A DNA stretch of 25,429 nucleotides from Atopobium sp. ICM42b (GTDB lineage: Bacteria; Actinomycetota; Coriobacteriia; Coriobacteriales; Atopobiaceae), in contig JDFH01000011.1 in assembly GCA_000564995.1 (NCBI GenBank), positions 1 through 25,429 of the forward strand. The letters are read 5' to 3'. Under the pieces are notes generated by a model, which was given only the letters and a program-made list of their open reading frames with translations, ran no database searches and was not told the origin of the DNA. Below are positions 3,044 through 25,256 of the stretch, piece after piece (the first letter of the stretch is position 1; each line of letters opens with the position of its first letter). Made by a program: the position numbers and the translations under genes.

Positions 3044-3083
3044 ATGGCGAGAAGATCTTCTGAATCCAAGATCTTCTCGCCAT
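3044..3083. terminator. Bidirectional hairpin made of an inverted pair of GGCGAGAA motifs
   Basis: ATGGCGAGAAGATCTT (3044-3059) is perfectly complementary to 3068-3083, giving a 16-bp stem and an eight-base loop. It sits between the convergent ends of the MATE gene and metY. Both arms contain the motif that recurs throughout the window (3046-3053 forward, 3074-3081 reverse). No long U-tract follows, but stem strength and position make a shared terminator likely. Inverted uptake-sequence pairs play this role in Haemophilus and Neisseria; here that is inference. Confidence 0.75.
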
Positions 3084-3110
3084 AACCATGAGCGGTTATA
3101 GAACGACTAA

Positions 3111-4391
3111 CTACAGCGCGGCAAGTGCCTGCTCGACGTCGTTGATAAGGTCTTCGGTGCCCTCAATACCGCAGCTCAAGCGCACAGTACCTGGGGTAAT
3201 GCCTGCTGCTACAAGCTCCTCATCAGTAAGCTGACGGTGCGTTGAAGAAGCTGGATGCAAGCAGCAAGAACGAGCATCTGCAACGTGTGTAGCAATGGAG
3301 AATACCTTGAGGTTACCCAGGAACTTCTCAGCAGCCTCGCGACCACCTGCAACGTCAACAGTGATAACACCGCAAGAACCGTTTGGCAGGTACTTCTGAG
3401 CCAACTCGTAGTACTTGTCACCTGGGAGGCCAGGGTAGCTTACGTGCGCAACCTTAGGATTGTTTGCAAGTGCCTCGGCAACTGCCTGGCCATTCTTGCA
3501 ATGCTGAGCCATACGAACGTGCAGGGACTCAAGGCCAAGGTTAAGATAGAAAGCGTTCTGTGGTGACTGAATGGAACCAAAGTCACGCATAAGCTGAACA
3601 GTTGCCTTAGTAATAAAGGCGCCACCATTACCAAACGTATCTGCATAGACAAGGTTGTGATACGAAGGATCAGGCTGGGTCAGACCTGGGAACTTATCTG
3701 CGTGAGCAGCCCAGTCAAAGTTGCCACCGTCAACAATGGCGCCGCCAACAGCAGAGCCGTGACCGTCCATATACTTGGTTGTGGAATGGGTCACAATATC
3801 TGCTCCCCACTCAAAAGGACGGCAGTTCACAGGTGTAGCAAACGTATTATCAACAATCAGAGGTACGCCATGGTCATGAGCGGCCTTTGCCCAACGTTCA
3901 ATATCAAGAACAACCAGTGCAGGGTTTGCAACAGTCTCACCAAAGACGCACTTTGTATTTGGTCTGAATGCTGCGTTAATCTCCTCGTCAGTTGCATCTG
4001 GTGAGATAAACGTACACTCAATACCCATCTTCTTAAGAGTGATAGCAAACAGGTTAAAGGTGCCGCCATAAATGGTAGACAGGGAGATAAAATGATCTCC
4101 AGCCTCAGCAATATTAAAGACGGCAAAGAAGTTTGCAGCTTGACCAGAAGACGTCAGCATTGCAGCTGTACCACCCTCAAGAGCACAAATCTTTGAAGCT
4201 ACGTTATCAAGCGTTGGATTTTGAAGACGAGAATAGAAATAACCCGCAGCTTTGAGGTCGAACAACTCTCCAAGCTGCATCGACTCGTCATATTTGAACG
4301 TGGTTGATTGAATGATAGGCACTTGCCTAGGCTCACCGCAACCAGGCTGATAACCGCCCTGTACGCAGCGAGTCTCGATGCTCTCAGACAT
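3111..4391 (-). CDS. metY: O-acetylhomoserine aminocarboxypropyltransferase (O-acetylhomoserine sulfhydrylase)
   Basis: The 426-residue product belongs to the Cys/Met-metabolism PLP-dependent enzymes. It makes homocysteine from O-acetylhomoserine and sulfide in methionine synthesis, in the cytoplasm. The start ETRCVQGGYQPGCGEPRQVPIIQSTTF and the PLP lysine in HSTTKYMDGHGSAVGG (Lys about 206) are typical of the MetY branch, as is the length; cystathionine-type relatives are usually nearer 380 residues. The ATG at 4389-4391 is chosen because GGGAGG lies six bases upstream; an in-frame extension to 4445 has no such support. It follows sixA-CHAD on the same strand after 69 bases, so they may be cotranscribed, though no functional link is obvious. 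A methionine gamma-lyase-like activity cannot be excluded by eye. Confidence 0.92.
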   Translation of the reverse strand: MSESIETRCVQGGYQPGCGEPRQVPIIQSTTFKYDESMQLGELFDLKAAGYFYSRLQNPTLDNVASKICALEGGTAAMLTSSGQAANFFAVFNIAEAGDHFISLSTIYGGTFNLFAITLKKMGIECTFISPDATDEEINAAFRPNTKCVFGETVANPALVVLDIERWAKAAHDHGVPLIVDNTFATPVNCRPFEWGADIVTHSTTKYMDGHGSAVGGAIVDGGNFDWAAHADKFPGLTQPDPSYHNLVYADTFGNGGAFITKATVQLMRDFGSIQSPQNAFYLNLGLESLHVRMAQHCKNGQAVAEALANNPKVAHVSYPGLPGDKYYELAQKYLPNGSCGVITVDVAGGREAAEKFLGNLKVFSIATHVADARSCCLHPASSTHRQLTDEELVAAGITPGTVRLSCGIEGTEDLINDVEQALAAL

Positions 4392-4415
4392 AGCATCCTC
4401 CCTCATAATCATCAT

Positions 4416-4451
4416 CCACGCCGCGCAAACGTCTCTGCGCTCCAAACGTGG
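4416..4451 (-). promoter_or_regulatory. Nested inverted repeats in the metY leader
   Basis: On the minus strand CCACG...CGTGG encloses GCGCA...TGCGC, so two short stacked stems could form in the RNA just before the metY ribosome-binding site. The stems are only five base pairs each with unpaired bases between. It does not match any SAM riboswitch pattern I can recognise. It may be a weak attenuator of the preceding gene or nothing. Confidence 0.2.
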
Positions 4452-4460
4452 ACTATGTGA

Positions 4461-5801
4461 TTACCTTAGGATACTAGTCTCTCTACCCTCAATCACACGC
4501 TCAATCAAAACTTTTTCATGTTCTGAAACAATTGCGAGGTCTGAGGTAACATCTCTGAAGTCCATAGAATCTTTCCACTCTTTGACCAGAGAAATATTGC
4601 GCTGAGCTGTGCAAATAGTGCTGAGCTCAGAGTCAATGTCCTGCATAATCTGGGTATAATTTGCGCGTTTCTCGCCCAGCATATCACTGAGGTGGAAAAG
4701 AATGTGCTCAACTTCACGAACTTCTCGCCTTGCATGGTGTACCTCAGAGAAGCTAGTCATATCCAGGCCAAAGAGGCGCGCATCAATAGTCTCCAGCATG
4801 TAATCAAAGCGGCTACTAATGTCTTCAAACGAGAGGCCATCTTTTAGTACCGCGTCTGACCATGCAGGCTCAAAGAGCTCATCCAGCGCACAGCGCAGAC
4901 TACGACGGACAGCCTTCTTGCGCAGTCCCTCGCAAATGCGATCGCGCTCAGACTCGCGAGCTGCTTCTACAGCGCTGACCAGCTTGGAGCCCTGAGAAAG
5001 CTCTCCAGACTCCATCAAATCTGCAACGGTATCAGAGAAGCCGTCAATCTCACGAAGACGCGTAGTTGCGCCAAGCATCAGCCTATAAACAGGCTCAGCA
5101 ATCTCAACTGCCTCCTCATTAAGAAGTGGCGAGAAAAACTTGGTAAGCAGCTGGGTTCCTCTAAGAGCAAACCTAAATGCTGCGATTACTGCAGGGTCTT
5201 CTGGATGAGCACGGAACTCTGTGTATGCATCTTCCAGATTGGTTGCTGCATGAGCGCATGCCTCATCCAGGGCATCAAGCGTCTCCCAAGGCTGAGTGGA
5301 AGGACCACTGACCAGCCAAAGAAGCTTTCCATGAGGCTCTCGAACGTCTCCAAGCTGCTTCCAGACGCACTCGTGTTGATGACCAAGTGAACCGCGTACG
5401 TCAATAGCGCACACGGCGCCCTTTGTCAGCGGAAGTTCAAATCCCAGCAGAGTTTCTGCAACATAACCCAAAAATGGGGCGTGACCAACAAGAATAAGCG
5501 TTTCTGCATCAGCGTGCTCAAGCTCTGCCTGAAGTGCAGGAAGATCTTGATCGTAAAGGGAGTCATGAATCTCTAGACCTTCTGCATCCAGAGCCTCTGC
5601 CACAATCTCTGCAGTCTCAAGCGCGCGAAGAGCGGGACTTGTCCAAATCTCAGCCTCTTCACCCTCTGGTCCCAACAAACCAAAAATATGAGGATAATTG
5701 GCAGATAAAGCCCTCTGACCAGCACGTGTAAGCTCTCGACTCATGTCTTCAGAGCCACGTTCAGATACACCATGTCTAACAAGAACCAAAGTCTTTACCA
5801 T
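4461..5801 (-). CDS. SixA-like histidine phosphatase fused to a CHAD-like domain
   Basis: The 446-residue protein has two parts. Residues 1-170 are a histidine-phosphatase-superfamily domain of the SixA type: VRHG with catalytic His10, an Arg near 59 in SPALRALETAE, and the second His107 in LVGHAPFLGY. Residues about 185-440 are an all-helical region with the basic repeats of CHAD domains (FRFALRGTQLLTKFF early, VHHARREVREVEHIL late). CHAD domains bind polyphosphate in the families where they have been studied. In the first half the hallmark His is replaced by Phe, while the second half keeps it. The ATG at 5801 has GGAGG five bases upstream and a plausible promoter beyond. A role in phosphohistidine or polyphosphate handling is inference. 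CHAD is more usually found with a CYTH domain. Confidence 0.8.
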   Translation of the reverse strand: MVKTLVLVRHGVSERGSEDMSRELTRAGQRALSANYPHIFGLLGPEGEEAEIWTSPALRALETAEIVAEALDAEGLEIHDSLYDQDLPALQAELEHADAETLILVGHAPFLGYVAETLLGFELPLTKGAVCAIDVRGSLGHQHECVWKQLGDVREPHGKLLWLVSGPSTQPWETLDALDEACAHAATNLEDAYTEFRAHPEDPAVIAAFRFALRGTQLLTKFFSPLLNEEAVEIAEPVYRLMLGATTRLREIDGFSDTVADLMESGELSQGSKLVSAVEAARESERDRICEGLRKKAVRRSLRCALDELFEPAWSDAVLKDGLSFEDISSRFDYMLETIDARLFGLDMTSFSEVHHARREVREVEHILFHLSDMLGEKRANYTQIMQDIDSELSTICTAQRNISLVKEWKDSMDFRDVTSDLAIVSEHEKVLIERVIEGRETSILR

Positions 5802-5836
5802 GTTTACCTCCGCTGGTCATCTGCAGAAAACTGCTT

Positions 5837-5864
5837 CTTATAGCGTAATAGGACGCCCGCGCAA
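5837..5864 (-). promoter_or_regulatory. Candidate promoter of sixA-CHAD
   Basis: On the minus strand TTGCGC (5859-5864) and TATAAG (5837-5842) are separated by 16 bases and lie about 40 bases before the start codon. They resemble housekeeping -35 and -10 boxes. The promoter is embedded in the inverted repeat at 5847-5884. Confidence 0.4.
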
Positions 5865-5884
5865 TTTTGCACGAACGTCCTATT
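5847..5884. repeat. Inverted repeat with a T-run on the plus strand
   Basis: AATAGGACG (5847-5855) pairs with CGTCCTATT (5876-5884), and plus-strand T residues continue to 5887. As an intrinsic terminator it would act on plus-strand transcripts, yet no plus-strand gene lies upstream. It overlaps the candidate sixA promoter, so it may instead be an operator or a block to antisense transcription. Confidence 0.4.
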
Positions 5885-5916
5885 TTTACTGCCAACGGGC
5901 AAATATATCGGTATAT

Positions 5917-5940
5917 GGCGAGAAAAACTTTTTATCTCGC
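5917..5940. terminator. Hairpin built from one GGCGAGAA motif and a degenerate partner
   Basis: GGCGAGAAAAAC (5917-5928) is followed by TTTTTATCTCGC. GCGAGA pairs with TCTCGC, and the A-run largely pairs with the T-run. It lies between asnS and sixA-CHAD, both on the minus strand, and could end asnS transcripts. Confidence 0.4.
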
Positions 5941-5950
5941 ATCTCTGCTA

Positions 5951-5985
5951 TGCAGTTATTGCATAACGGCTATGCATAATCTGCA
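5951..5985. repeat. Stem-loop downstream of asnS
   Basis: TGCAG and TGCATA (5951-5955, 5960-5965) pair with TATGCA and CTGCA (5971-5976, 5981-5985), leaving a small internal loop and a five-base hairpin loop. It lies about 90 bases past the asnS stop on the minus strand. Together with the motif hairpin at 5917-5940 it probably forms the 3' end region of that transcript. Confidence 0.4.
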
Positions 5986-6075
5986 CGCAAAAATCCAACT
6001 TGAAAGACTTGGCAACTGTGGCGGTAAAGCTAGTGCTCTATCCACGCGTCCCTATACCGCCTGTGACCGGCAATC

Positions 6076-7479
6076 TTAGAAGTCAGCGTTGCCAACGGTA
6101 CGAGGGTGAGGAATAACGTCGCGGATGTTATCCACACCGGTGAGGTACATAACAAGGCGCTCAAAGCCAAGACCAAAGCCAGAGTGTGTGCAAGAGCCGT
6201 AACGGCGAAGATCCAAGTAATACTTGTAATCGTCGGGGTTCATGCCAAGCTCAACAATGCGCTTCTCCAGAAGTTCAAGACGGTCTTCTCGCTGTGAGCC
6301 ACCAATAATCTCGCCAATGCCTGGAACAAGGCAGTCAGCTGCGGCAACAGTCTTGCCGTCATCGTTAAGGCGCATGTAGAAGGCCTTGATTTCTGCTGGA
6401 TAATCAGTAACAAAGATTGGCTTTCCAAAGTGCTGCTCGGTGAGGTAGCGCTCGTGCTCAGTCTGAAGGTCAATGCCCCACTCGACGGGATACTCAAACT
6501 TCTGGCCAGCCTTTACTGCCTCCTGCAGAATCTCAATTGCCTCGGTGTAAGAAACACGAGAGAACTGCGAAGTTGCAACGTGGTTCAGACGCTCAAGCAA
6601 ACCCTTATCCACAAACTTGTTAAGCATCTCAAGCTCATCTGGGCAGTGCTCAAGAACGTATGCAATAACGTAGCGGAGCATCTCTTCTGCAACATCCATG
6701 TCCTGTGCAAGATCACAGAAAGCCATCTCTGGCTCAATCATCCAGAACTCTGCTGCATGACGACGTGTGTTGGAGTTCTCTGCGCGGAACGTTGGACCAA
6801 ATGTGTACACGTCACCAAAGGCCATAGCAAAGTTCTCTGCCTGAAGCTGTCCAGAAACGGTGAGGTGAGAAGACTGACCAAAGAAGTCCTTTGAGTAGTC
6901 AACATCGCCCTTCTCGGTACGTGGAACGTTGTTTAGATCAAGCGTGGTAACACGGAACATCTCGCCTGCACCCTCAGCATCAGATGCGGTGATGATTGGG
7001 GTGTTCACATAGACAAAGCCACGATCCTGGAAGAACTGGTGAATGGCAAAGGCAGCCACAGAACGGATGCGGAAAACTGCACGGAACATGTTGGTGCGAG
7101 GACGAAGGTGCTGTTGCGTACGAAGGTACTCGAGAGACTGACGCTTCTTCTGCATTGGATAATCTGGGCTGGATGGTCCCTCAATCACAATGGTCTGCGC
7201 CTGCAGCTCAATAGGCTGTGGGCGATTGGGGGTAAGCTCAAGGACACCCTGAATAATCAGAGCAGCGCCAACGCCACAGGAAGCAACCTCCTCGTAATTG
7301 CCAAGGTTCTCACGATTCATAACAACCTGTAGGTCTTTGAAGCAGCTACCGTCATTAAGTGTGACAAAGCCAAAATTCTTCATATCCCTTACTGAACGTA
7401 CCCAGCCGGCCACCGTAACTTTTTGGCCACCAAGTTGCTCTGCATCTGCGTACAATGCAGAAATCGTGATGCGCTCCAC
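6076..7479 (-). CDS. asnS: Asparagine--tRNA ligase
   Basis: This class IIb aminoacyl-tRNA synthetase charges tRNA(Asn) with asparagine. The N-terminal part ([21 protein letters not shown]) is the OB-fold anticodon-binding domain. The catalytic core shows motif 2 around [16 protein letters not shown] and motif 3 around [15 protein letters not shown]. The [14 protein letters not shown] signature and [14 protein letters not shown] linker favour AsnRS over AspRS. The start is uncertain: AAGGAGG lies eight bases before a GTG (7477-7479), the best spacing, but only two bases before an in-frame ATG (7483-7485). A GTG at 7503 has no ribosome-binding site. The gene stands alone with a leader carrying two tandem hairpins. 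Confidence 0.95.
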
Positions 7480-7502
7480 GGGCATACCCTCCTTGTAACT
7501 CA

Positions 7503-7542
7503 CTCTGCAGGCTTTTCCTGCGCTCTGCAGGACTATCCTGCG
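7503..7542 (-). promoter_or_regulatory. Tandem 20-bp repeat forming two hairpins in the asnS leader
   Basis: CTCTGCAGG..CCTGCG occurs twice head to tail (7503-7522 and 7523-7542) with 17 of 20 bases identical. On the asnS mRNA each unit folds as a GCAGG/CCTGC stem with a short loop. Both lie just before the ribosome-binding site. Two matching small hairpins suggest an RNA-binding protein site or a translational control element. It lacks the features of a T-box that I could check (no long specifier stem or conserved T-box loop seen). Confidence 0.4.
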
Positions 7543-7646
7543 AGACGAACAAATATCTATTTAGAATACCGCATAACCACATGGCAAACGTTCACTTTTA
7601 TATATCTGGCGGTATTTACGCTAATCTCACACAGCCAAGCCAGCGC

Positions 7647-7674
7647 GCCATAAAACACCGTGCCATAAAACACC
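7647..7674. repeat. Direct repeat GCCATAAAACACC upstream of pyrE
   Basis: The 13-mer GCCATAAAACACC occurs at 7647-7659 and 7662-7674, a 15-bp period, about 85-110 bases before the pyrE start. It could be a regulator site for pyrE or for the divergent asnS. A poor candidate -10 (TAAACT, 7690-7695) follows. Confidence 0.4.
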
Positions 7675-7756
7675 TATCCGCAATTCGGCTAAACTAGTGC
7701 AGTAGAACTTACCTACAAAATGCCGCCACGTTAAAAGGCCTGCTAAAGGAGAAACC

Positions 7757-8437: not shown

Positions 8438-8470
8438 GGCGAGAAAAACCTCTGCGTAGAAACCTGACTT

Positions 8471-9385
8471 ATGACTCTGACTCAACTGAAATACGTTCTT
8501 GCTATTGCTAAGGCAGGCACTATTAACGCCGCAGCTAAACAGCTCTTTATCTCGCAGCCTACCCTGAGTAGCGCAGTCAAAGAGCTTGAAGCCGAGCTGG
8601 GAATCTCCCTTTTTAACAGGACCAGCAAGGGTGTTGAGCCTACAGCTGATGGCGAGGAGTTTTTGAGTTACGCCAGGCAAGTTGTCATGCAGACCGACCT
8701 TATTGAAGAGCGCTATCTGGGCACCGCCCCTTCTAAGCAGCGCTTTTGTGTTTCTTGCCAGCACTATTCCTTTGCAGTTGAAGCCTTTGTCAACCTGATT
8801 AAAGAGCACGGCGGCTCAAAGTACGATTTCCGTATCAGAGAGACGCAAACGTACGAGATTATTGAAGATGTCTCAAAGCTAAGAAGTGAAGTAGGCGTCC
8901 TTTACCTCAACTCATTCAACGAGCGCGTTATTAGAAAAACGCTGCAGGACCAGGGCCTGGTTTTCTCGCCATTGTTTAAGTGCAAACCAAGCGTTTTTGT
9001 GGGAAAAGATAACCCGCTGGCAAAGCGTTCCTCGGTAACACTCAACGATCTTGCCCCCTACCCTCGCCTTTCTTACGAGCAGGGTGAACACAACGCGTTC
9101 TATTTCTCCGAGGAGCTTCTGGCAACGCTTGATCGCGATAAGGACATCATGGTCCGAGACCGCGCCACTATCTTCAACCTGATTATTGGCCTGAACGGCT
9201 ACACCATCAGCACTGGCCTTATTAACGAGGAGCTCAACGGCCCAAACATTGTTGCAATTCCTCTAGCTGTTGATGATTACATGGAAGTTGGCTACGTTAC
9301 CCACGACGAGAAGAGCCTCTCGCCCTTTGGTGAACTCTACATCGACGCGCTCAAGCGCTGCTGCCAGGCAGTTACGTGGGTGTAG
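8471..9385 (+). CDS. LysR-family transcriptional regulator
   Basis: The 304-residue product has the LysR winged helix-turn-helix at residues 1-60 (LKYVLAIAKAGTINAAAKQLFISQPTLSSAVKELEAELG), followed by a periplasmic-binding-protein-like effector domain. The ATG at 8471 has no good ribosome-binding site, so it may depend on translation from pyrE, whose stop lies 33 bases upstream. Targets and effector are not evident. LysR regulators often act on a divergent neighbour, but here both neighbours are codirectional. The gap to engB holds a weak AT-rich box. Confidence 0.9.
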   Translation: MTLTQLKYVLAIAKAGTINAAAKQLFISQPTLSSAVKELEAELGISLFNRTSKGVEPTADGEEFLSYARQVVMQTDLIEERYLGTAPSKQRFCVSCQHYSFAVEAFVNLIKEHGGSKYDFRIRETQTYEIIEDVSKLRSEVGVLYLNSFNERVIRKTLQDQGLVFSPLFKCKPSVFVGKDNPLAKRSSVTLNDLAPYPRLSYEQGEHNAFYFSEELLATLDRDKDIMVRDRATIFNLIIGLNGYTISTGLINEELNGPNIVAIPLAVDDYMEVGYVTHDEKSLSPFGELYIDALKRCCQAVTWV

Positions 9386-9452
9386 GGGGTCTACTCCTCT
9401 CAACTTGCGCTAAAATAATACCTTACGTTTTTGAAGCGCAATGGGAGGCATC

Positions 9453-10037
9453 ATGGGTCTTAAGTATGAAACCGCACAATATGAGGCATCATACGGGGCA
9501 ATTTCACAACTTCCTTCTCCAGAGACCCCAGAGGTGGCCTTTGTGGGCCGCTCAAACGTGGGTAAGTCTTCCCTCTTAAATAAACTTATTGGACGAAAAC
9601 AGCTTGCACGAGTTTCAAGCGTTCCAGGTAAAACCGCTAATATCAACTTCTTTGACGTTGATGGCGTCAAATTTGTAGACTTGCCTGGATACGGATTTGC
9701 ACGAGTTTCTCGCCAAGAAAAACAACGCTGGGCGGACCTCATTGGCGGCTATTTTGAGCAAGAACGCAGCTTTAACCTGGTCATTAGTCTTGTTGATATC
9801 AGACACGAAGCTCAAAAGCTTGACCTGCAGATGATTAGCTTTCTCCAAGAGGCTGATCTGCCCTTTGTAGTTGCGTTTACCAAGGCTGATAAGATTGCAC
9901 GCGGCAAGCAAAACCAAGCCGCGGCTGCTTTGCGTAAAGCATTCCACATTACCCCTGAACAGGCCATTATTACCTCATCCGAGACCGGCCTGGGCATTGA
10001 CGAGTTGCGCCGCCGCATCGAAGACGCAACTATCTAG
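9453..10037 (+). CDS. engB: Ribosome biogenesis GTP-binding protein YsxC/EngB
   Basis: This 194-residue TrmE-Era-EngA-type GTPase is needed for assembly of the large ribosomal subunit in the species where it was studied. The GTPase motifs are G1 GRSNVGKSS at residues 32-40, a conserved threonine in the GKTANINFF segment, G3 DLPGYGFA, G4 TKAD and G5 SSETG. The ATG at 9453 is chosen because GGGAGG lies five bases upstream; an upstream ATG at 9441 would place that site inside the gene. Its stop overlaps the helD ribosome-binding site, so the two are probably translationally coupled. Confidence 0.93.
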   Translation: MGLKYETAQYEASYGAISQLPSPETPEVAFVGRSNVGKSSLLNKLIGRKQLARVSSVPGKTANINFFDVDGVKFVDLPGYGFARVSRQEKQRWADLIGGYFEQERSFNLVISLVDIRHEAQKLDLQMISFLQEADLPFVVAFTKADKIARGKQNQAAAALRKAFHITPEQAIITSSETGLGIDELRRRIEDATI

Positions 10038-10044
10038 GAGCATC

Positions 10045-12261
10045 ATGGATCCAATCCACCAGCAAGAGCAAGAGCACCTCTCCCACGTTTATCAAAAACT
10101 TGTTGAGATTCGTGAGGATTTGGACACAACGCTCAATACTACGCAAAAAGATGCAGCTAGAGACCTTCGTCAGATGAGTGAAGAAATCCGCCCAGACTTT
10201 GGTGGAGCGGACGAAACCATCGAGACCCTTGCGGCCATTGAGACGCTCAACAGCGTTATTGATACCTACAACCAGTACCACGATTTTACTGTCGAGAAAC
10301 TCGGTCGAGTTGAAATCCTTTTGAGGCAGCCTTACTTTGCTAAGGTTACGCTCAAGATGCGACCTGGACGTCCTTCTCGCGATGTGTATATTGGCGCGGC
10401 GGGCATCACCGACAAAGACCGCACACCGCTTATTGTTGACTGGCGCAGCCCCGTTGCCGAGACGTATTACAACCAAGAGATGGGTACTACGTCGTACCAG
10501 GTAGACGGCAAGAAAAGAACGGTTGAGCTGGAACTTAGACGACAGTTTGACATCACGCGCGACAAGCTGAACCTCTACTTTGACACAACGGTTGCCATTG
10601 AAGACTCTCTGCTGCTCGCCGCACTAAAGCGTCAGCACACCGAGAAACTGCAGGCCATCACCGCAACTATCCAGCGCGAACAAAACGTTGTGGTCAGGCA
10701 CGAGGATGTGCCCGTTCTACTGGTCAACGGCATTGCAGGCTCGGGTAAAACGTCCGTTTTGCTGCAGCGCATTGCGTACCTTCTCTACCAGCAGCGCACC
10801 ACACTTACCGCAGATCAGGTGTACCTGTTCACCCCTAACGAGATGTTTGGTCGCTACATCAACACTGTTTTGCCTAGCATGGGCGAGCACAATCCGCAGG
10901 TATTCACCTGGGATTCTTTTCTCAAGGCTTTGGGTCTGGCCGACCACGCATCGGGCGCCCACAACAACCCCAAGTCTCTGAAGAAACTTGAAGAGCAACT
11001 TGCCTCACTTGAACTTTACGAGGACGACTTCAAGGCCATTTCTGTTGAAGGAACTACGCTCATTAAGCCAGCTCAGGTGGCTAGTTCTGTGGCAAAGTTC
11101 TCGCAATTCCCTGTTGGCCCGCGCCTCATTGCACTTGCCAAAGACGAGCTCCACACCCGTCTGGAGCGCAGACTTGGCCAAATGGCTCACAACGACGAAA
11201 TCCAAGAAGAGATGCTCTCCCTTGACGTTGAGCAGCAGCTTGAGGTCTTTGGTCGCACCATCAGCCCTTCCGACGAGGAAGAAGTTCTGGCGCGCACCCG
11301 CGAGTTTCTCAACTGGCGTTTTGCCTCTGCACACGAGGTCATCGAGTCCGCTTCCTGGCTGCGCATCGACCGCATTGGCATGCGCATACTCAACGCCTCC
11401 GCGCTAAGCGGTGCCGAATGCGTTTACCTGCGTCTTCTTATCACAGGCGCTGGCGAGAAAAACATCAAGTTTGTCATGATTGACGAGGTCCAAGACTACA
11501 CCGAAACGCAGCTTATGGTGCTAGGAAAGTACTTCTCGCGCGCGCACTTTTTGCTTTTGGGCGACTCTAACCAGGCAATTTGGGAAGACACTGCAACGTT
11601 TGGGCAGATTGAGAGGATCTTTAGCGCAACACACGGCGAGGGTGCAGTTTCTACCTGTAAGCTTCTGACCAGCTACCGCTCCTCTCCCGAGATTACTGCA
11701 CTGTTTACCTCGCTTTTGAGCGAAGAAGAACGTGGCCAAACAAGCTCCGTTCAACGCGGCGGCAAAAAACCTGAGTTCTTTGAGGTGGCCGCTGACAACA
11801 AAGATACTGAGCGCGCCGAGTACCTGCAAACTATGAAGTCTCTTATTGAGCAGGCGCAGGAGTTTGACGGGCTAACCGCCATTGTGTGTACCGAGAAGTC
11901 TCGCGTTCGCTGGCTGGCCAAACAGCTGGAAGGGGTTTTTGCAGAGGGCGGAAACGACGCTGCAGATGGCGCGACCGATGGCGTTGCAGGCAACGGTGCG
12001 ACGCAGGCCAAGCTGTGCACCGGCGTCAAAGTGCTCACCAGCCACGATTCCCTACCCGCGAAGGGCGTTGTTCTTCTCGACCTTGCACTAGCAAAGGGCC
12101 TTGAGTTTGATCAGGTCATTGTTGCCGACGCACAAGAGGAAGTATATAAAGCAGACGGAATTTCTCGCCGTAGGCTCTACACCGCCCTGTCGCGTGCGAT
12201 GCATCATGTGATGGTGGTCTCTCAAGGAAAGATGACTCCGCTGCTCAGTAAATTGCTTTAA
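10045..12261 (+). CDS. helD: HelD-like UvrD-family helicase
   Basis: The 738-residue protein is a superfamily 1 ATPase. Residues 1-120 are helical, with a coiled-coil start (HQQEQEHLSHVYQKLVEIREDLDTTL split over two turns). The DWRSP segment and KRTVELELRRQFDI are followed by Walker A GIAGSGKTS near residue 229, Walker B MIDEVQDY near 478, TSYRSSPEI, KGLEFDQVIV and a C-terminal YTALSRAMHHVMVV motif VI. The order, the long N-terminal arm and the length near 740 match HelD, which removes stalled RNA polymerase from DNA in Gram-positive bacteria, better than UvrD, Rep or PcrA. The ATG at 10045 has AGGAG overlapping the engB stop. RNA polymerase recycling is inferred from the family. Confidence 0.85.
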   Translation: MDPIHQQEQEHLSHVYQKLVEIREDLDTTLNTTQKDAARDLRQMSEEIRPDFGGADETIETLAAIETLNSVIDTYNQYHDFTVEKLGRVEILLRQPYFAKVTLKMRPGRPSRDVYIGAAGITDKDRTPLIVDWRSPVAETYYNQEMGTTSYQVDGKKRTVELELRRQFDITRDKLNLYFDTTVAIEDSLLLAALKRQHTEKLQAITATIQREQNVVVRHEDVPVLLVNGIAGSGKTSVLLQRIAYLLYQQRTTLTADQVYLFTPNEMFGRYINTVLPSMGEHNPQVFTWDSFLKALGLADHASGAHNNPKSLKKLEEQLASLELYEDDFKAISVEGTTLIKPAQVASSVAKFSQFPVGPRLIALAKDELHTRLERRLGQMAHNDEIQEEMLSLDVEQQLEVFGRTISPSDEEEVLARTREFLNWRFASAHEVIESASWLRIDRIGMRILNASALSGAECVYLRLLITGAGEKNIKFVMIDEVQDYTETQLMVLGKYFSRAHFLLLGDSNQAIWEDTATFGQIERIFSATHGEGAVSTCKLLTSYRSSPEITALFTSLLSEEERGQTSSVQRGGKKPEFFEVAADNKDTERAEYLQTMKSLIEQAQEFDGLTAIVCTEKSRVRWLAKQLEGVFAEGGNDAADGATDGVAGNGATQAKLCTGVKVLTSHDSLPAKGVVLLDLALAKGLEFDQVIVADAQEEVYKADGISRRRLYTALSRAMHHVMVVSQGKMTPLLSKLL

Positions 12262-14372: not shown

Positions 14373-14470
14373 GTGCGCGCGAGTGCTGCGCGGGTGGTGC
14401 AGCGCGGGTCCGGGTGCGGCGCGGGTGTGGGTCTAGGAACGGCTGCGTGAACTGCGGGTTTCTCGCCGCA
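14373..14470. repeat. GC-rich degenerate tandem tract after the enolase terminator
   Basis: The sequence is dominated by variants of GCGCGGGTG spaced about 14-17 bases (around 14386-14430), much richer in GC than the flanks. It then contains one GGCGAGAA motif in reverse (14460-14467). No gene is supported here. Similar GC-rich tracts follow the phosphofructokinase and purL genes. Confidence 0.45.
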
Positions 14471-14532
14471 CGCGATAACTTAGCGGGCGCATGGGTTCCG
14501 TAGACGCATCCGAGCCTAGTTTGAAACGCCCG

Positions 14533-14663
14533 AACACACCTATGTCGGATAATCTGCCGAAAATGCGTATACATTTCGTTGAAAATACTTATCTCATGCA
14601 GAATATCGTTATTAGATGTGTTTTTTATCCTTGATTTTGCAGATTATCCGACATAGATGTGTT
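14533..14663. repeat. Repeat element C, complete copy with 25-bp inverted ends
   Basis: The left arm at 14533-14557 and the right arm at 14639-14663 are inverted copies matching at 24 of 25 bases (core TGTCGGATAATCTGC). The interior has degenerate units carrying GTATACATTTCG and CTCATGCAGAATATC, the last resembling the arm. The first 60 bases match the minus strand of bases 1-60 of the window. With 131 bp, inverted ends and no coding capacity, it looks like a small non-autonomous element or a multi-site recognition element. No target-site duplication was evident. Confidence 0.7.
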
Positions 14664-14933
14664 TGCTTAACTCTGAAATTAAGGGTAATTAAATCTTTGA
14701 TATATCTTCATTCATAATTATGTATATCAGATAGAAATTATGCATAATAGTGAATTGAGCGTACGTGATTAAATTCAAATTCTATAACCAAAGCTGCTCC
14801 ACGATGTATTTGGGCTATTGAGTCTGGTTTTATCTGCAGTTTTTTGAGGATGTTCCGTCAGTCGATATAACGGCACCGCAGCATCCCACCGCGGTTATAC
14901 TTGATATGTCAACTCTCAAGAATCCGAGGCGCC
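14664..14933. other. AT-rich intergenic stretch before the phosphofructokinase gene
   Basis: The first 150 bases are AT-rich with short dyads such as GATATA..TATATC (14699-14728) and two ATTATG copies, but no open frame with a ribosome-binding site. The last 100 bases rise in GC. TATACT (14896-14901), 33 bases before the start codon, is a candidate -10 box. I see no RNA gene here. Confidence 0.4.
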
Positions 14934-16241
14934 ATGAACACCACATCAGAGCATGTAATACGCACAATCCTGGTTGGACAGTCGGGCGGGCCGACTGCAG
15001 CCATCAATGCATCGCTTGCGGGTGTTATTCGCGCAGCTCACGCCCAGGGCCTCCGAGTGCTCGGGATGCGCAACGGAATCCAGGGATTTCTTGAGGGCGG
15101 CGTCGTTGATCTGGTGGAAGCACTTGAACTTACAGCGTCTGAATCCGGATCGTCCAACCACGCATCCACAAATCCTGGCGAGAAGAACCTCCAGCTCCTA
15201 AGGAAAACGCCATCAAGCTGGCTGGGTAGCTGCCGCTTTAAGCTGCCGGAGCTTGCTGACAACTCAGAATCCGCAGCCATCTCCCCTATCTACCAGCAGA
15301 TTGATGCGCAGCTCAAGAAATACCAGGTAGACGCCGTGCTATACATCGGCGGCAACGATTCCATGGACACCACGCACAAGCTGTCTCGATACTTTGCCCA
15401 GGTGGAAAGCCATGTTCGCGTTGTAGGTGTGCCAAAAACCATCGACAACGACCTCGAGGGCACCGATCACACCCCCGGCTTTGGTAGCGCGGCGCGATTC
15501 GTTGCGTCCGTAACCGCCGAGCTCACCCGCGACGGCGGCGTCTACAACAGCAAAAACGTCACGTTTATCGAAGCCATGGGTCGCGACGCCGGCTGGCTCA
15601 CGGCAGCTGGTGCGCTGGCACAAGATATTTGCGGAACTGCCCCGGATTTTGTCCTCCTGCCCGAGGTTCCGCTTGATGAACACGCGCTACTTTCCACCAT
15701 TGAGCAGCGACTTCGCGAGAAAAACAACGTGATCGTAGTTGTTAGCGAGGGCGTTCATCACGCAGATGGTAGTTTCCTTTTTGATGCAAAATCCGTTGCG
15801 ATTGACACGTTTGGCCATCTCGCGGCACAATCCGGAACGGCTCAATACTTGTCGCAGCTAGCCAAGGATCAACTGGGCGTAAAGTCTCGCGGCATTGAGC
15901 TCAATACGCTGCAGCGTTGCGCTTCGCATGCTGCTAGCAAGGTTGACTTGGACGAGGCAGAAGCGCTCGGTGCTGCAGGAGTTGAAGCTGTTCTCCAAGG
16001 TAAAACCGGTGTTATGGTAGGCGTTCACCGAACTTCTGATGTCCCATATACTTCGGAGATTCGCGCCACCCCTGTCGCCGATGTTGCTAACAAGGTAAAG
16101 CTTGTACCTCGAGAAATGATCTCCGAAGACGGCTTCAACGTTACCGACACTGCCCTGACCTATCTGCGTCCTCTTGTCGCAGGTATGGAGGAGCCGATTT
16201 CTACCGACGGACTTCCCCGTTTTCTTGCGGAGCTATCGTAG
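14934..16241 (+). CDS. 6-phosphofructokinase, probably pyrophosphate-dependent
   Basis: The 435-residue enzyme phosphorylates fructose 6-phosphate at C1. Motifs are GGPTAAIN at residues 18-25, GGNDS at 139-143, PKTIDND at 167-173, and a later EAMGRDAGWL. In ATP enzymes of this family the second and third motifs carry Gly where this protein has Asp (GGNDS) and Lys (PKTID). Asp and Lys at these positions mark the pyrophosphate-using enzymes, which work reversibly in glycolysis and gluconeogenesis. The ATG at 14934 is preceded by GAGG; a TTG at 14901 would overlap the candidate -10 box and is rejected. It follows enolase but has its own promoter region. The phosphate donor is inferred from residues alone. 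Confidence 0.9.
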   Translation: MNTTSEHVIRTILVGQSGGPTAAINASLAGVIRAAHAQGLRVLGMRNGIQGFLEGGVVDLVEALELTASESGSSNHASTNPGEKNLQLLRKTPSSWLGSCRFKLPELADNSESAAISPIYQQIDAQLKKYQVDAVLYIGGNDSMDTTHKLSRYFAQVESHVRVVGVPKTIDNDLEGTDHTPGFGSAARFVASVTAELTRDGGVYNSKNVTFIEAMGRDAGWLTAAGALAQDICGTAPDFVLLPEVPLDEHALLSTIEQRLREKNNVIVVVSEGVHHADGSFLFDAKSVAIDTFGHLAAQSGTAQYLSQLAKDQLGVKSRGIELNTLQRCASHAASKVDLDEAEALGAAGVEAVLQGKTGVMVGVHRTSDVPYTSEIRATPVADVANKVKLVPREMISEDGFNVTDTALTYLRPLVAGMEEPISTDGLPRFLAELS

Positions 16242-16353: not shown

Positions 16354-17279
16354 TACTCCCCGAGGAACCTTACCTCTGGGTGAAGCTCGACATCAAACTG
16401 GCGCTTGACCTCTGCCTGAACATGCTCGATAACTGCATGAACCTCGGCAGCGGTAGCGTTGTCGTAGTTGACCACAAAGCCAGCATGCTTATCGGAAACA
16501 CCGGCACCGCCAAAGCGATAGCCCTTAAGACCAGCGTCGGTGACAAGCTTGCCTACAAAGTGACCCTCAGGACGCTTGAAAGTTGAACCAGCGGAAGGCA
16601 GCTCAAGAGGCTGCTTTTCCTCGCGAGCGCGCGTAAATTCTTCCATCTTTTCACGGATTTTCTCGCCATCCGCACGATGAAGATTGAACGTGGCAGAAAG
16701 CACAATCATGCCCTCATCAGCGATTCTGCTTTGACGATAACCCAGGTCAAGCTCGGAAGCGTCCAGCGTAGCAAAGGTGCCATCGTCGAGAAGGACACGG
16801 ACGGATTTGAGCACGTCAGCGATGCAGCCGTCGTAAGCGCCTGCGTTCATGAAGCATGCACCGCCCACAGAACCTGGGATGCCGCACGCAAACTCCAGTC
16901 CAGAAAGGTCCAGCTCACAGGCCATCTCGGAGGCTTCTTTGAGGCCAACGCCGGCCTGGCAGGTCATCTCGGTATCGTCGATGCTTACGCCGGTGAGACC
17001 ATCGGCAATAGCAATGATGACGCCACGATAACCTGCATCGGAAACAAGCAGGTCAGAGCCGTAGCCAAGAATAAAATAAGGAGCTTCTGCATCTTTAACT
17101 GCAAGGAGAATCTCTTTAACCTCATCGGGATCATCAGGGATGACATAGAGATCCGCAGGTCCACCCACTTTAAAAGTGGTGTGCTCGCTCATTGGCTCGT
17201 CTACCAGGACGTTCTCTTCTCCAACAATCGAGCAAAGCTTTCCGGCCAGGCTTTGTAAGTCATAGCCACTTTCAGACAT
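16353..17279 (-). CDS. murB: UDP-N-acetylenolpyruvoylglucosamine reductase
   Basis: This 308-residue FAD enzyme reduces UDP-GlcNAc-enolpyruvate to UDP-MurNAc with NADPH, the second committed step of peptidoglycan synthesis. The FAD-binding domain shows TTFKVGGPAD at 34-43, GYGSDLLVSDAGYRG at 72-86 and CGIPGSVGGACFMNAGAYDG at 132-151. The substrate domain has PSAGSTFKRPEG at 228-239 with the catalytic serine, GGAGVSDKHAGFVVN, and the closing HPEVRFLGE with a conserved glutamate. The ATG at 17279 has AAGGAG nine bases upstream. It is alone on the minus strand. One GGCGAGAA motif lies in frame (16660-16667). Confidence 0.96.
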   Translation of the reverse strand: MSESGYDLQSLAGKLCSIVGEENVLVDEPMSEHTTFKVGGPADLYVIPDDPDEVKEILLAVKDAEAPYFILGYGSDLLVSDAGYRGVIIAIADGLTGVSIDDTEMTCQAGVGLKEASEMACELDLSGLEFACGIPGSVGGACFMNAGAYDGCIADVLKSVRVLLDDGTFATLDASELDLGYRQSRIADEGMIVLSATFNLHRADGEKIREKMEEFTRAREEKQPLELPSAGSTFKRPEGHFVGKLVTDAGLKGYRFGGAGVSDKHAGFVVNYDNATAAEVHAVIEHVQAEVKRQFDVELHPEVRFLGE

Positions 17280-17294: not shown

Positions 17295-17400
17295 GTAAGT
17301 TACTTTTTATAGTTTATCGCAAGCGAGAAAAACGTGGCGTTGGGGCGAGAAAATCACGGCGTTGGGCCGAGAAAATCATGATTCTGGAACGATAAAACAA
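17295..17400. repeat. 22-bp tandem array carrying the GCGAGAAAA core
   Basis: From 17333, units of 22 bp follow head to tail: GCGAGAAAAACGTGGCGTTG, GCGAGAAAATCACGGCGTTG, CCGAGAAAATCATGATTCTG and a degenerate ACGATAAAAC unit. A possible inverted unit (GCGATAAAC on the minus strand) precedes them. Only the second unit is a full GGCGAGAARNNC motif. The array lies between the divergent starts of murB and the ribU riboswitch. Confidence 0.6.
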
Positions 17401-17472: not shown

Positions 17473-17484
17473 ACTTATCGATAT

Positions 17485-17650
17485 GTTTCAGAAATGGTTG
17501 CAATTACCTACTGGTGGTAAGGTGGCCGAGCTTCAGGGTTTGTAACAACCCAGCTCAAAGAGCCATCAAGTCCGCGACCCGCAAAAAGGCGGTTAACCTG
17601 GTTAAAGTCCAGGACCAACGGTACAGTCCGGATGTCAGAAACGGAGACTT
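17485..17650 (+). ncRNA. FMN riboswitch (RFN element)
   Basis: The sequence follows the FMN aptamer pattern: CAGAAATGGTTGCAATTACC, then CTGGTGGTAAG, a variable stretch, GTCCGCGACCCGC, GGTTAAAGTCCAGGACC and the hallmark ACGGTACAGTCCGGATG. The closing helix P1 is GTTTC (17485-17489) with GAAAC (17638-17642). The 3' strand of P1 lies directly before the GGAG ribosome-binding site of ribU. FMN binding would therefore be expected to block translation initiation, as no terminator stem is seen between aptamer and gene. The gene downstream encodes a riboflavin transporter, which fits. Confidence 0.88.
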
Positions 17651-17652
17651 TT

Positions 17653-18232
17653 ATGGCTTCATCCCACTCAACCCACGCAACAACCGCATCTTCTAACGGC
17701 TGGTCTACCAAGAGAATCGCTATTCTCGCCATGCTTTGTGCAGCTGCTGCAATCAGCACCATGGTGCTTCAGTTCCCCCTGATCCCAGGCGTGACGTTCT
17801 TGAAGTACGATCCATCGGGCGTTTTTGCCCTGCTTGCAGGCGTAGCTTTTGGCCCTGCTGCGGGCGCGATCGTCTCGGTGCTTCCCTACCTTCTACACCT
17901 CACCACGGAGTCTGGAATTTACGGCACTATCATGGCAATTCTGGCAACGCTTACCTACGTTTTGCCTGTTTCGCTAATTGTGTATAACCGTTCCGAGAAT
18001 ATCAAACAGCTGGTGCTTGCCCTGATTGTGGGCAGCGTTGTCAGCGTTGTCGCATGCATTCTGGGCAACCTTGTAGTTACCCCAATCTACACCGGCATGA
18101 GCGTCGAGGCAGTAAGCGGACTGATTGTCCCTGCTCTTCTCCCCTTCAACGTGGTAAAGGTTGCTATCAACAGCATCATCTTTGTTGTTATCATGCGCTC
18201 GGCTACTTCACTTTTTGAGAGCATCAAAAACG

Positions 18233-18240: not shown

Positions 18241-20120
<1,880 letters not shown>

Positions 20121-20131
<11 letters not shown>

Positions 20132-20915: not shown

Positions 20916-21056
20916 AACTTTTAACTAAATAATCTGTATTTTTACCGCTCTGTTACAACCCATTTTTCTTTTCTCGACAACCGCCAATTTGACCACCTAA
21001 GTAACGTACAATAAAGCCAGTAAAAGCGTTCAAGGCTTGCATTGAAAGGTGGCCCC

Positions 21057-24000
21057 ATGGTCCTGCGCGTCTACGTCCAAAGAAAATCTGGTTTCGAGGG
21101 CGAGGCAAAAGCCCTGCTCAAAGAAGTGAAAGACCTTCTTGGTATTACCGAGTTACAACGCATTGACCTGCTTAACCGCTATGATGTTGAGGGAATTTCA
21201 GAGGAACTCTTTGAGTCCTGCATCCCCACCGTTTTCTCCGAGCCACAGTCCGATCTTGCCAGCCGTACCATGCCAGAGTTTTCTTCTGAAGGTGTGGCTG
21301 TTCATACGTTTGCTGTTGAGTTTTTGCCTGGCCAGTTTGATCAGCGCGCAGACTCCGCGGCTGAGTGTGTACAGCTTATCAGCCAAGGAGAGCGCCCTCT
21401 TGTTCGCTCCGCACGCATTTATGTGCTAACTGGAAACCTCAGTGAGGCAGATGTTGCTGCCATCAAAAATTACCTGATTAACCCTGTTGAGGCTCGCGAG
21501 GCTTTCCTTGAGCTTCCCGAGACCCTCAAGATTTCCATTCCAGAGCCTGCTGATGTAGAGGTTCTTGAGGGCTTTAACGCTCTTGACCAGGACGGCCTCA
21601 AGGAGTTCATTGCTTCTCACGGCCTTGCTATGGACCTGGCTGACCTCACCTTCTGCCAGCAGTACTTCACCGATGAGCAGCGCGATCCTACCATCACTGA
21701 GATTCGCGTCATTGACACCTACTGGTCTGACCACTGCCGCCATACTACCTTCAACACCGGAATTACCGGTGTGCAGATTGATGATGACCTGGTAAAGGCC
21801 GCGTTTGAGAAATATCTCTCCATGCGCAAAGAGCTTGGGCGAGAAGATCGTGCCGTCTCTCTTTGGGACATGGCCACTATTGGTGCAAAGTACCTTCGCG
21901 AGAAGGGCGTTCTCACCAATCTTGATGAGTCAGAAGAGATTAATGCCTGTACCGTAAAGGTAAAGGTAGACGTTGACGGTAAAGACGAAGACTGGCTTTT
22001 CCTCTTCAAGAACGAGACTCACAATCATCCAACCGAGATTGAGCCTTTTGGTGGCGCAGCTACCTGCATCGGTGGCGCAATCCGCGACCCTCTTTCTGGC
22101 CGCAGCTACGTCTACCAGGCAATGCGCGTCACCGGCGCCGCAGATCCAACCGTTCCTGTTTCCCAGACACTTCCTGGAAAGCTTCCTCAGCGCACCATTG
22201 TTCGCACGGCAGCTGCGGGTTATTCCAGCTACGGTAACCAGATTGGCCTTGCTACCGGCCAGGTTTCTGAGCTCTATCACCCAGGCTATGTTGCAAAACG
22301 CATGGAGATTGGTGCTGTTGTAGGCGCAACTCCTCAAAGTCACGTTCGTCGTGAGCGTCCAGAAGATGGCGATATCATCGTTCTTCTCGGCGGCCGCACT
22401 GGTCGCGATGGCATTGGTGGCGCAACCGGCTCTTCAAAGGCACACGATGCTGGCTCCATTGAGCGCGACGGTGCCGAGGTCCAGAAGGGTAACGCTCCTG
22501 TTGAGCGCAAGCTTCAGCGCCTCTTCCGCCGTGAAGATGCCTGCAAGCTCATCAAGCGTTGCAACGACTTTGGTGCAGGCGGCGTTTCTGTTGCTATCGG
22601 CGAGCTTGCCGACGGCCTTGACGTCAACCTGGATGCTGTTCCTAAGAAGTATGACGGCCTTGATGGCACTGAGCTGGCAATCTCCGAGTCTCAGGAGCGC
22701 ATGGCCGTTGCGCTTGAGGCAAAAGACGTCGATCAGTTCTGCGCATACGCCCGCGAAGAAAACCTCGAGGCAACCATTGTGGCTACTGTCACCGAGGATC
22801 CTCGCCTGGTCATGCGCTGGCGCGGTCAGAAGATTGTCAACATTAGCCGTGCATTTCTCGCCTCAAACGGTGCACCTAAATCAATCACCGTGCGCCTGGC
22901 CAAGCCTCTTGCCTACCAGCGCACCTGGGCAGGTACAACTCTTGGCGAGAAACTCCACTCGCTGGTACGCGATCTAAACGTTGCATCTAACAAGGGTCTC
23001 TCCGAGCGCTTTGACTCTACCATTGGCGCAGGTACCGTCCTCATGCCATTCGGTGGCGCTCGCCAGCTGACCCCTGCCCTTTCTATGGTGGCTAAGCTTC
23101 CTGTTATGGGCCAGACCAATACAGTCTCGGGCATGGCTTGGGGCTTTAACCCCTACCTCATGGAAGCTGACCAGTTCCGTGGCGCCTACCTTTCTGTTGT
23201 TGAGTCCGTTTCCAAGCTGGTTGCTACCGGCTTTAAGTACCAGGACCTCTACCTCACCTTCCAGGAGTACTTTGAGAAGCTCGGTCAGAATCCTAACCGT
23301 TGGGGCAAGCCAGCCGCGGCCCTTCTCGGCGCACTGATGGCCCAGGTCAACCTTGGCCTTGCAGCTGTCGGAGGCAAGGACTCCATGTCCGGTACCTTTG
23401 AGGACCTGGACGTTCCACCAACGCTGGTTTCGTTTGCTACCGGCCTTACCAAGGTAGACAAGATTGTCTCCAACGAGTTCAAGGGTGCAGGTCACAGACT
23501 TATTTCTATTGTCCCATCCTACGACGAGTCCGGTCTTCTCCCCGACAACGAGTCCCTGCTCGCAGTATACAAGCTGGTCAACACCCTGGTCCAGTCTAAG
23601 AGCGCGCTTGCCATTACCACGCCAGGTTACGGCGGCGTGGCCGAGGCTCTCTTCAAGAGCTGTCTGGGTAACAAGCTGGGCGTTGAGCTGGTCCCAGAGA
23701 TTTCTGCCGACGCGCTCTTCTCGCCAACTTACGGCGCCTTCATCGTTGAGCTGGCAGACGGCGTATCCGTTGACGACGTCGTCGGCGTGTGCGTGGCTCC
23801 TCTGGGCGTCACCACGTCCGAGTACGCTTTCATCGCATGTGGCGAGAAGATCGACCTCTCCGAGCTCCAGGAAGCATGGGAGCGCCCACTTGAGGAGGTC
23901 TTCCCGTACCGCGGAGGTTCCGACGAGGCTGTGGAGAAAGTCAGCTTTGACGGCGCATCCACACGACACTCCTATGCTGGTCCAGCCCTTATCGCACCTG

Positions 24001-24812: not shown

Positions 24813-24841
24813 GGTGCGCTCGCAGGTTGCAAGCGATTTCT

Positions 24842-24880
24842 ACCCGGTATCCATTTCGTGTGGATGCCGGGTTTCTTGTG
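24842..24880 (+). terminator. Intrinsic terminator of purL
   Basis: ACCCGGTATCCA (24842-24853) pairs with TGGATGCCGGGT (24861-24872), with one wobble pair and a seven-base loop, then TTCTTGTG. It lies 30 bases past the purL stop. Confidence 0.85.
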
Positions 24881-24959
24881 CGAAAGCGCTGCTAGTGGAC
24901 GGGGCTTCTCGCCAGGCGGGCGGTGCGAGCTGGCGCGTACCAGGTGTACGCTTGGGTGC
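24881..24959. other. GC-rich tract between the purL terminator and the repeat cluster
   Basis: This stretch holds one reverse GGCGAGAA motif (24906-24913) and a hairpin GCGTAC-caggt-GTACGC (24935-24951). I see no supported gene. Confidence 0.4.
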
Positions 24960-25077
24960 GCCTGATTTCTGCAAAGAATCTGTAACTTCTGCCTAATAAC
25001 ATCAAAGAATCGGTGGATTTGCCTGATTTTGTCAAAGAATCGGTGCCCTAAATACAGATTCTTTGCACTTTTCAGGC
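24960..25077. repeat. Repeat element A, copy 1
   Basis: The 118-bp element has three head-to-tail units starting GCCTGATTTCTGCAAAGAAT, GCCTAATAACATCAAAGAAT and GCCTGATTTTGTCAAAGAAT (24960, 24991, 25021; 30-31 bp each) and a fourth inverted unit at 25053-25077 ending TTTTCAGGC. First and last units form imperfect inverted ends. Copy 2 at 25291 has the same length and about 90% identity by my count (12 differences). There is no coding capacity. Confidence 0.85.
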
Positions 25078-25132
25078 GGACTTTTCTATACGTAACTCTG
25101 ATTTCAAGGTTGGTTTTATGGACGCTCTTATG

Positions 25133-25256
25133 GAGCCTGATTTTCCCGCCAAGTCTGAACGATTTGCCGGAAAAGCGCACCATATCTGAGCTATTTGCCG
25201 GTTTTTCTCGCCAAGTCTGAGCGAATTTACTCAGACATGGTGGGGTTTTCAGGCTC
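25133..25256. repeat. Repeat element B, between the two copies of A
   Basis: The 124-bp element begins GAGCCTGATTTTCC and ends with the inverted GGTTTTCAGGCTC. Inside are three units with cores CCAAGTCTGAACGATTTGCC, CCATATCTGAGCTATTTGCC and CCAAGTCTGAGCGAATTTA, spaced about 30 bp, then an inverted unit CTCAGACATGG. The plan is the same as A with different unit sequence. One unit junction is a GGCGAGAARNNC motif (25205-25212 reverse). Confidence 0.75.

Follow-up and report, generated by a model that had tools for sequence, protein, structure and literature searches.

A 12-base motif scattered through Atopobiaceae genomes is probably a DNA uptake sequence, putatively read through a Tad/Flp pilus

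The DNA analysed here, a 25,429-nucleotide stretch of contig JDFH01000011.1 from Atopobium sp. ICM42b (hereafter the window), carries ordinary metabolic and transport genes among its named genes, together with an open reading frame (ORF) without a family match at 145-1302, and is punctuated on both strands by a 12-base motif, GGCGAGAARNNC. The octamer at the start of this motif, GGCGAGAA, occurs 25 times, 11 copies forward and 14 reverse, exactly where the initial annotation had counted them. Two copies form an inverted pair at the 3' end of metY (+ arm 3046..3057, - arm 3070..3081). Farther along the window lie three copies in a SixA-like gene (4665..4676 and 4718..4729 on the - strand, 5128..5139 on the +), an intergenic copy (5917..5928, +), one directly 3' of the pyrE stop codon (8438..8449, +), one in a LysR-type regulator gene (8959..8970, -), one in the ORF at 9441-10037 (9703..9714, -), two in the HelD gene (11452..11463, +; 12158..12169, -), an intergenic copy after eno (14456..14467, -), one each in the phosphofructokinase gene (15177..15188, +) and murB (16656..16667, -), and a further intergenic copy (17344..17355, +). 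The gene for the S-component of an energy-coupling factor (ECF) transporter holds one octamer with T at position 9 (17719..17730, -), the ECF ATPase gene holds two copies (19124..19135, -; 19148..19159, +) and purL holds five (21838..21849, 22944..22955 and 23841..23852 on the + strand; 22851..22862 and 23714..23725 on the -), with two more intergenic copies beyond (24902..24913 and 25201..25212, both -).

All but one of the 25 octamers fit GGCGAGAARNNC, the exception being the T-bearing copy at 17723. The extended pattern that had been proposed stood up throughout, with C at position 12 in 25/25 octamers, a purine at position 9 in 24/25, and the same RNNC continuation in eight of the ten NGCGAGAA sites that begin with another base; T immediately precedes the motif in 16 of the 25. 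Dinucleotide shuffles of the window gave a mean of 1.0 octamer and 0.11 12-mers by chance, and GGCGAGAA was the top-ranking octamer by count. Markov models of orders 1-4 predicted 1.0 to 4.1 copies, and an order-5 model, which already includes most of the octamer word, predicted 11.9. With gene bounds that we picked ourselves, 17 copies were genic, falling in five of the six frames, and eight were intergenic in 12.9% of the sequence, and comparison of site with gene coordinates likewise bore out the reported absence of sites from enolase, asnS and metY.

Genome-wide numbers were obtained from relatives: Atopobium sp. BS2 (G001), Atopobium sp. oral taxon 199 F0494 (G002; 1,665,560 bases analysed, containing all 510 of the strict sites from our genome search) and the first 455 kb of a genome that we take to be Lancefieldella parvula DSM 20469 (G061). 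BS2 and L. parvula belong to the Atopobiaceae, order Coriobacteriales. BS2 was the closest record found to the window (94.6% DNA identity over 24,932 aligned window bases), and the best segment of the purL protein was 99% identical to BS2 and 81% to F0494. Throughout, a strict site is GGCGAGAARNNC and a core site is CGAGAARNNC. Strict sites numbered 626 in BS2, 510 in F0494 and 1,466 in Olsenella profusa An794, against 17, 23 and 54 for the reversed-pattern control, so that the excess over control was large in each. Among 297 genomes of the order, 48 (here called motif-rich) contained 339 to 1,563 strict sites, 38,451 in sum, two contained 213 and 267, and the remaining 247 contained 2 to 191. 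The density of about one motif per kb claimed from the window did not extend to whole genomes, the Atopobium relatives having one per 2.6 to 3.4 kb. Motif-rich groups had a core density of 1.0-1.9 per kb. Eleven motif-poor relatives, taken as one mixed group that included locus L008 (20 sites in 24 kb), had 0.36 per kb, Eggerthellales 0.33 and Bifidobacterium 0.13. In F0494, motif words topped the lists of over-represented 8-, 9- and 10-mers under an order-4 model (280 kb of contig 2). A second uptake-like motif was sought in motif-rich and motif-poor relatives among ten frequent words, with nine loci inspected; most of the words were clustered or paired repeats, and no such motif is claimed. 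Several Coriobacteriia loci and one Bifidobacterium locus were seen to possess their own clustered short repeats or inverted pairs, for example GTGCAAAAG and AATTGGGGAC...GTCCCCAATT (such repeats lie at L066 9611-15844, L018 15441-22276, L007 14812-17063, L039 3251-3552 and L012 1284-1563, and in L014 and L071).

The consensus was refined from these genomes. In the logo of 684 F0494 octamers, position 9 was G (0.72) or A (0.17), position 12 was C (0.82) and the preceding base was T (0.45), and none of the other positions between 15 bases upstream and 36 bases downstream exceeded 0.1 bits. The first two positions of GGCGAGAAGNNC (427 copies in F0494) tolerated single-base variants (54-181 copies), whereas positions 3-8 hardly did (0-46). 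In the 455 kb of L. parvula, position 9 was A (0.43) or G (0.47), C at position 12 reached 0.89 and the preceding T 0.61, and further preferences were weak (up to 0.17 bits, for example A at 10 and T at 15 and 20). The position-12 C is therefore found in other genomes too, and these variants and logos together define a strict part, CGAGAA with C at 12, and a softer 5' part. The edges around it vary between genera, as dialects. The favoured form was TGGCGAGAARNNC in the window, BS2 and L. parvula, TGGCGAGAAGNNC in F0494, GGCGAGAAGNNC in O. profusa An794 and GCCGAGAAGNNC in Olsenella kh2p3 and Tractidigestivibacter, while O. intestinalis tended to CGAGAAGAGC (36 sites from a single locus, exceeding the reversed control only 2.4-fold). 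The loci were grouped by hand, with no genome tree, and the core is constant across groups because CGAGAARNNC served as the seed; unseeded support for the edges came from the word lists of relatives, and, also unseeded, C at position 12 after CGAGAAR had a frequency of 0.72-0.90 in motif-rich groups against 0.37-0.64 in others.

The motif is conserved where it is fixed. Between the window and BS2, 23/23 aligned strict sites were intact, with 0/207 changes at the nine fixed positions and 4/69 at the free positions 9-11 (both position-9 changes being purine to purine), compared with 40/56 intact same-letter control words; in the reverse direction 23 of 24 BS2 sites were intact in the window. Against L. 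parvula (89.2% identity), 19/22 window sites were intact compared with 36/70 controls, changes amounting to 8/198 at fixed positions and 7/22 at position 9, and 19 of 20 L. parvula sites were intact in the window. For BS2 contigs 46 and 1 against L. parvula, 29/36 sites and 69/152 controls were intact. Fisher p values were 0.004 (window-BS2), 0.005 (window-L. parvula) and 0.00016 (BS2-L. parvula), for three comparisons that have sequence in common and hence are not independent. Within its first 400 kb, the L. parvula genome shared only short repeats with the window and BS2 contig 46.

Close pairs of motifs are enriched and preferentially inverted. F0494 had 20 neighbouring pairs within 60 bases against 7.4 expected (11 +-, 4 -+, 3 -- and 2 ++), five of them overlapping to form the palindrome GGCGAGAAGNNCTTCTCGCC, and L. 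parvula had 6 against 2.9 expected, all +-. Pooled, 17/26 close pairs were inverted (+-), where a quarter is expected (p = 2e-5), and a T-run stood on one side in 9/17 inverted pairs, a figure without a chance control. The metY pair of the window forms a terminator-like hairpin (3043..3084, read on the - strand) with a 17-bp stem and an 8-nt loop, followed on that strand by TTTTTG (z-scores of -5.2 to -7.1), and the orthologous stretch of L. parvula holds a similar hairpin.

Phage DNA in these genomes is poor in the motif. Ten proteins were used to sample five of the largest stretches of F0494 without core sites. Among the finds were phage tail proteins, a STAND NTPase, a type I restriction subunit together with a GmrSD nuclease, and one gap with 5,278 N and an unmatched protein. 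In F0494, whose phage region has portal, terminase, tail, head and integrase genes, the prophage part had 5 core sites where host density predicts 16.4, and a second, related prophage had 2 against 14.8; part of a Thermophilibacter mediterraneus (G005) phage had 7 against 23.4, and part of a Thermophilibacter provencensis (G004) element had 0 against 10.0. This gave 14 core sites against 64.6 expected for phage DNA in total, about one fifth of host density, or 9 against 48.2 without the F0494 prophage, which had been chosen because it is located in a gap. The first two prophages both have a GC content of 0.51, and the F0494 host 0.52. The flp pilin gene is itself split in both Thermophilibacter genomes, after GVLV and at points no more than one or two codons apart, by elements that differ from one another and that each encode a large serine integrase (L185 ~4597-6203; L186 ~4142-5912; L230 ~4380-4490, minus strand). 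The T. mediterraneus element has a phage-type repressor gene, and a 44-kb viral contig in IMG/VR carries the identical junction at its end; in nine other motif-rich tad loci compared, flp was intact. The gene looks like a phage attachment site. Prophages inserted in competence genes are a known pattern in Firmicutes, and the flp insertions are at most a hint that this pilus functions in DNA uptake.

Competence and pilus genes of the kind that the initial annotation had proposed looking for are present in relatives. In F0494, comEA (helix-hairpin-helix and SLBB domains) adjoins comEC, and dprA was found, as was DprA in 11/11 genomes tried. A second, partial match to the ComEC C-terminus (261 residues at 30% identity) lies at 276011-276739 of F0494 contig C2 and may represent a distinct protein with a metallo-beta-lactamase fold. 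The F0494 tad locus encodes CpaB-, TadZ-, TadA-, TadB- and TadC-like proteins (TadB and TadC assigned by gene order and length), Flp and several TadE/TadG-like proteins; much of this locus (contig C1, 723911-731197; L121) has no core sites over 7.3 kb, placing it among the larger gaps. Tad neighbours of the PF00437 ATPase were confirmed in ten loci besides that of F0494. A regex scan of F0494, with the ORFs listed and judged by eye, gave no convincing classical type IV pilin. ComEC was present in 288/297 genomes, including 48/48 motif-rich ones, and the PF00437 ATPase in 37/37 motif-rich panel genomes, with all 70 panel genomes matching and 69 over the cut-off, so that co-occurrence with either gene was of no help as a discriminator. 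Proteins matching TadE, TadG and a 154-residue pilin-like protein were found in 8/10 motif-rich and 7/7 motif-poor tad loci, TadG being situated farther away in T. provencensis and T. mediterraneus. Micrococcus luteus, another member of the Actinomycetota, is reported to transform by means of ComEA/ComEC and Flp pili encoded in tad clusters (PMC4322843, PMC6370729).

Taken together, these data support the earlier proposal of a DNA uptake sequence, through the genome-wide excess, the position-12 C, the lack of strong strand bias (below) and the competence genes, all of these seen in relatives; the conserved fixed positions, dialect edges, inverted pairs and phage depletion fit it further. We put the probability that the motif is the DNA uptake sequence of the Atopobiaceae, with a putative Tad/Flp pilus route, at about 0.78; from the genomic patterns we infer uptake function, pilus role, receptor and terminator function alike. 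The tag (T)GGCGAGAARNNC, strict in CGAGAA and C at 12 and scattered over both chromosome strands, would be bound on free DNA by a surface receptor during natural transformation, and the cell would thereby favour DNA from its own kind. Uptake would most likely run through the Tad/Flp pilus together with ComEA and ComEC, as M. luteus does it, and the receptor would most likely be one of the TadE/TadG-like minor pilins. Copies would accumulate as tagged alleles were more often taken up and recombined, and some inverted pairs may have been reused as transcription terminators.

Several observations weigh against this interpretation. Among ComEC, the PF00437 ATPase and the tad minor pilins, no gene tracked the motif: ComEC and the ATPase also occur in motif-poor genomes, and the tad minor pilins, compared for their occurrence in motif-rich and motif-poor loci, showed no difference that would point to a receptor. 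Of the 37 motif-rich panel genomes, six had a second PF00437 ATPase above the cut-off. At greater species distance the sites turn over (2/9 intact between the window and F0494, control 2/23), core density per 10-kb window of F0494 correlates with GC (r = 0.54), one of its motif-free gaps is a phosphotransferase system (PTS) operon, and the window pair at 19124/19148 folds no better than shuffles (z = -0.5). A slight leading-strand excess of strict sites is treated below. No published report of competence in these genera was found, nor any literature on Lancefieldella natural transformation, Olsenella natural competence or Coriobacteria uptake sequences (most subscription journals lay outside the search); the string GGCGAGAA matches many texts, so its absence from print cannot be claimed.

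Of the other explanations, an improbable one that nonetheless survives best is a Chi-like hotspot, at which the motif would stop a nuclease of the RecBCD/AddAB/AdnAB type and load RecA, and which would be enriched in chromosomes and lacking in foreign DNA. High density and depletion from phage DNA are as such a site would have them. Chi functions in a single orientation and shows strong bias in E. coli, and the FtsK-guiding sites (KOPS, FtsK orienting polar sequences) are strongly strand-biased too, lying almost entirely on the leading strand; both resemble the present motif in being frequent and non-palindromic. The initial annotation had argued from the balance of forward and reverse copies; such a balance is uninformative on replichore bias, and orientation was therefore tested by replichore, assigned in F0494 from GC skew with omission of 100 kb around the presumed origin and with the L. 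parvula stretch taken as one replichore. Strict sites were 265 leading to 230 lagging in F0494 and 83 to 67 in L. parvula, a slight pooled leading-strand excess (348/645, p = 0.049) that would suit Chi, but core sites showed none (859/1,676 in F0494, 236/466 in L. parvula), while 991/1,387 F0494 ORFs lie on the leading strand. The near balance thus held up in these relatives, with no strong strand bias, even though the argument first made for it did not. The strong orientation of Chi and KOPS was absent from the motif, which counts against Chi, and both were rejected on this ground; nor does Chi call for the inverted arrangement seen in 17 of the 26 close pairs.

Slightly less probable again is a binding site for an abundant protein that organises or segregates the chromosome, such as a nucleoid protein, an SMC loader or an FtsK guide. 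Genome-wide spread and conserved fixed positions would be expected of it, but the motif has no strong strand bias as an FtsK guide would, and counts per 20 kb of F0494, judged by eye, revealed no clustering at the origin or terminus. We give equally little credence to a tag without known function, maintained through biased mutation or repair or through a methyltransferase, in the manner of the highly iterated palindrome HIP1, the octamer GCGATCGC repeated throughout cyanobacterial genomes. HIP1 is alike in being a genome-wide repeated tag of high density, but it is palindromic, whereas the consensus here is directional with a spaced C, and a bias in mutation acting genome-wide would be expected to affect integrated prophages whose GC content equals the host's, yet these are depleted.

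The effect of coding was assessed in F0494 with our own ORF caller (1,387 ORFs) and 20 rounds of each of two synonymous shuffling schemes, which left 36 (standard deviation 5, genome-wide) and 43 (standard deviation 5, within genes) of the 415 strict sites in coding sequence. A by-product of codon or amino-acid use, or the spread of dispersed repeats, is accordingly a negligible contender, for although coding-sequence sites prefer frame 0 in both orientations (306/414) and 16 of 150 L. parvula sites lie in multi-copy stretches, shuffling rules out codon use, intergenic density exceeds genic (0.53 against 0.28 per kb in F0494, p = 1e-7), and flanks were unique within 455 kb for the other 134/150 sites, which speaks against repeats as the cause. 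Motif and gene direction agreed at 199 F0494 sites and were opposite at 215.

The reading as an uptake sequence can be set beside the systems in which such tags are established, to our knowledge only two families of other bacteria. Density, absence of strong orientation, inverted pairs, dialects, sequence constraint and phage depletion together match the DNA uptake sequences (DUS) of Neisseriaceae and the uptake signal sequences (USS) of Pasteurellaceae, and fit poorly with Chi, KOPS, HIP1 and codon effects. DUS are described as short, directional and present in hundreds to thousands of copies on both strands, with terminator-featured inverted pairs and dialects, and the cores given there are CTG for DUS and GCGG for USS (PMC12616744). 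The present motif shares all of these features of DUS, for which the receptor is ComP, and resembles USS (predicted receptor ComN/PpdA) in density, use of both strands, the existence of more than one type, and terminator-like pairs. Genome-wide excess and transformation genes in the host are likewise found. In contrast, its fixed letters, GGCGAGAA..C, contain neither CTG nor GCGG on either strand, its host belongs to the Actinomycetota, and in F0494 a Tad/Flp pilus takes the place of a convincing classical type IV pilin. The probable machine and the phylum also differ from those of USS. Nor does it have the two AT-rich segments of USS, since information past position 12 was at most 0.08 bits in F0494 and 0.15 bits in L. 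parvula (to position 22). M. luteus has ComEA, ComEC, DprA, tad genes and phylum in common with these bacteria, but TadZ, present in F0494, is reported missing from M. luteus (PMC4322843), and the main text of that paper does not contain the words 'uptake sequence'.

Because it has no core in common with DUS or USS and occurs in a different phylum, our best reading is that the Atopobiaceae motif arose independently of both and is probably read through the Tad pilus. The fuller proposal, that it is a third uptake sequence of independent origin and the first for Actinomycetota and for single-membrane bacteria, read in Atopobiaceae dialects by a Tad/Flp minor pilin, and that phages have responded by integrating in flp, we hold at somewhat better than even odds. 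A third origin, in another phylum and with another pilus type, would allow the evolution of uptake specificity to be compared, would give Tad minor pilins a candidate role, and would make tagged DNA a practical genetic tool for Olsenella, Atopobium and Lancefieldella. The motif is carried by numerous members of the Atopobiaceae from gut and mouth, at hundreds to over a thousand copies per chromosome.

Other features of the window were observed in passing. In the SixA-like gene (4461-5801), an N-terminal SixA-like phosphatase part is followed by a longer C-terminal part that matches no NCBIfam family. A flavin mononucleotide (FMN) riboswitch (17480-17647) lies upstream of the genes for the ECF S-component, the ATPase and a transmembrane protein, an ordinary riboflavin-type uptake locus. 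The intergenic stretches 24831-25409, 14520-14756 and 3-106 each resemble a number of further sites within the first 400 kb of L. parvula, and within the first of these, 24960-25078 and 25291-25409 are 90% alike, with three 31-base copies in between.

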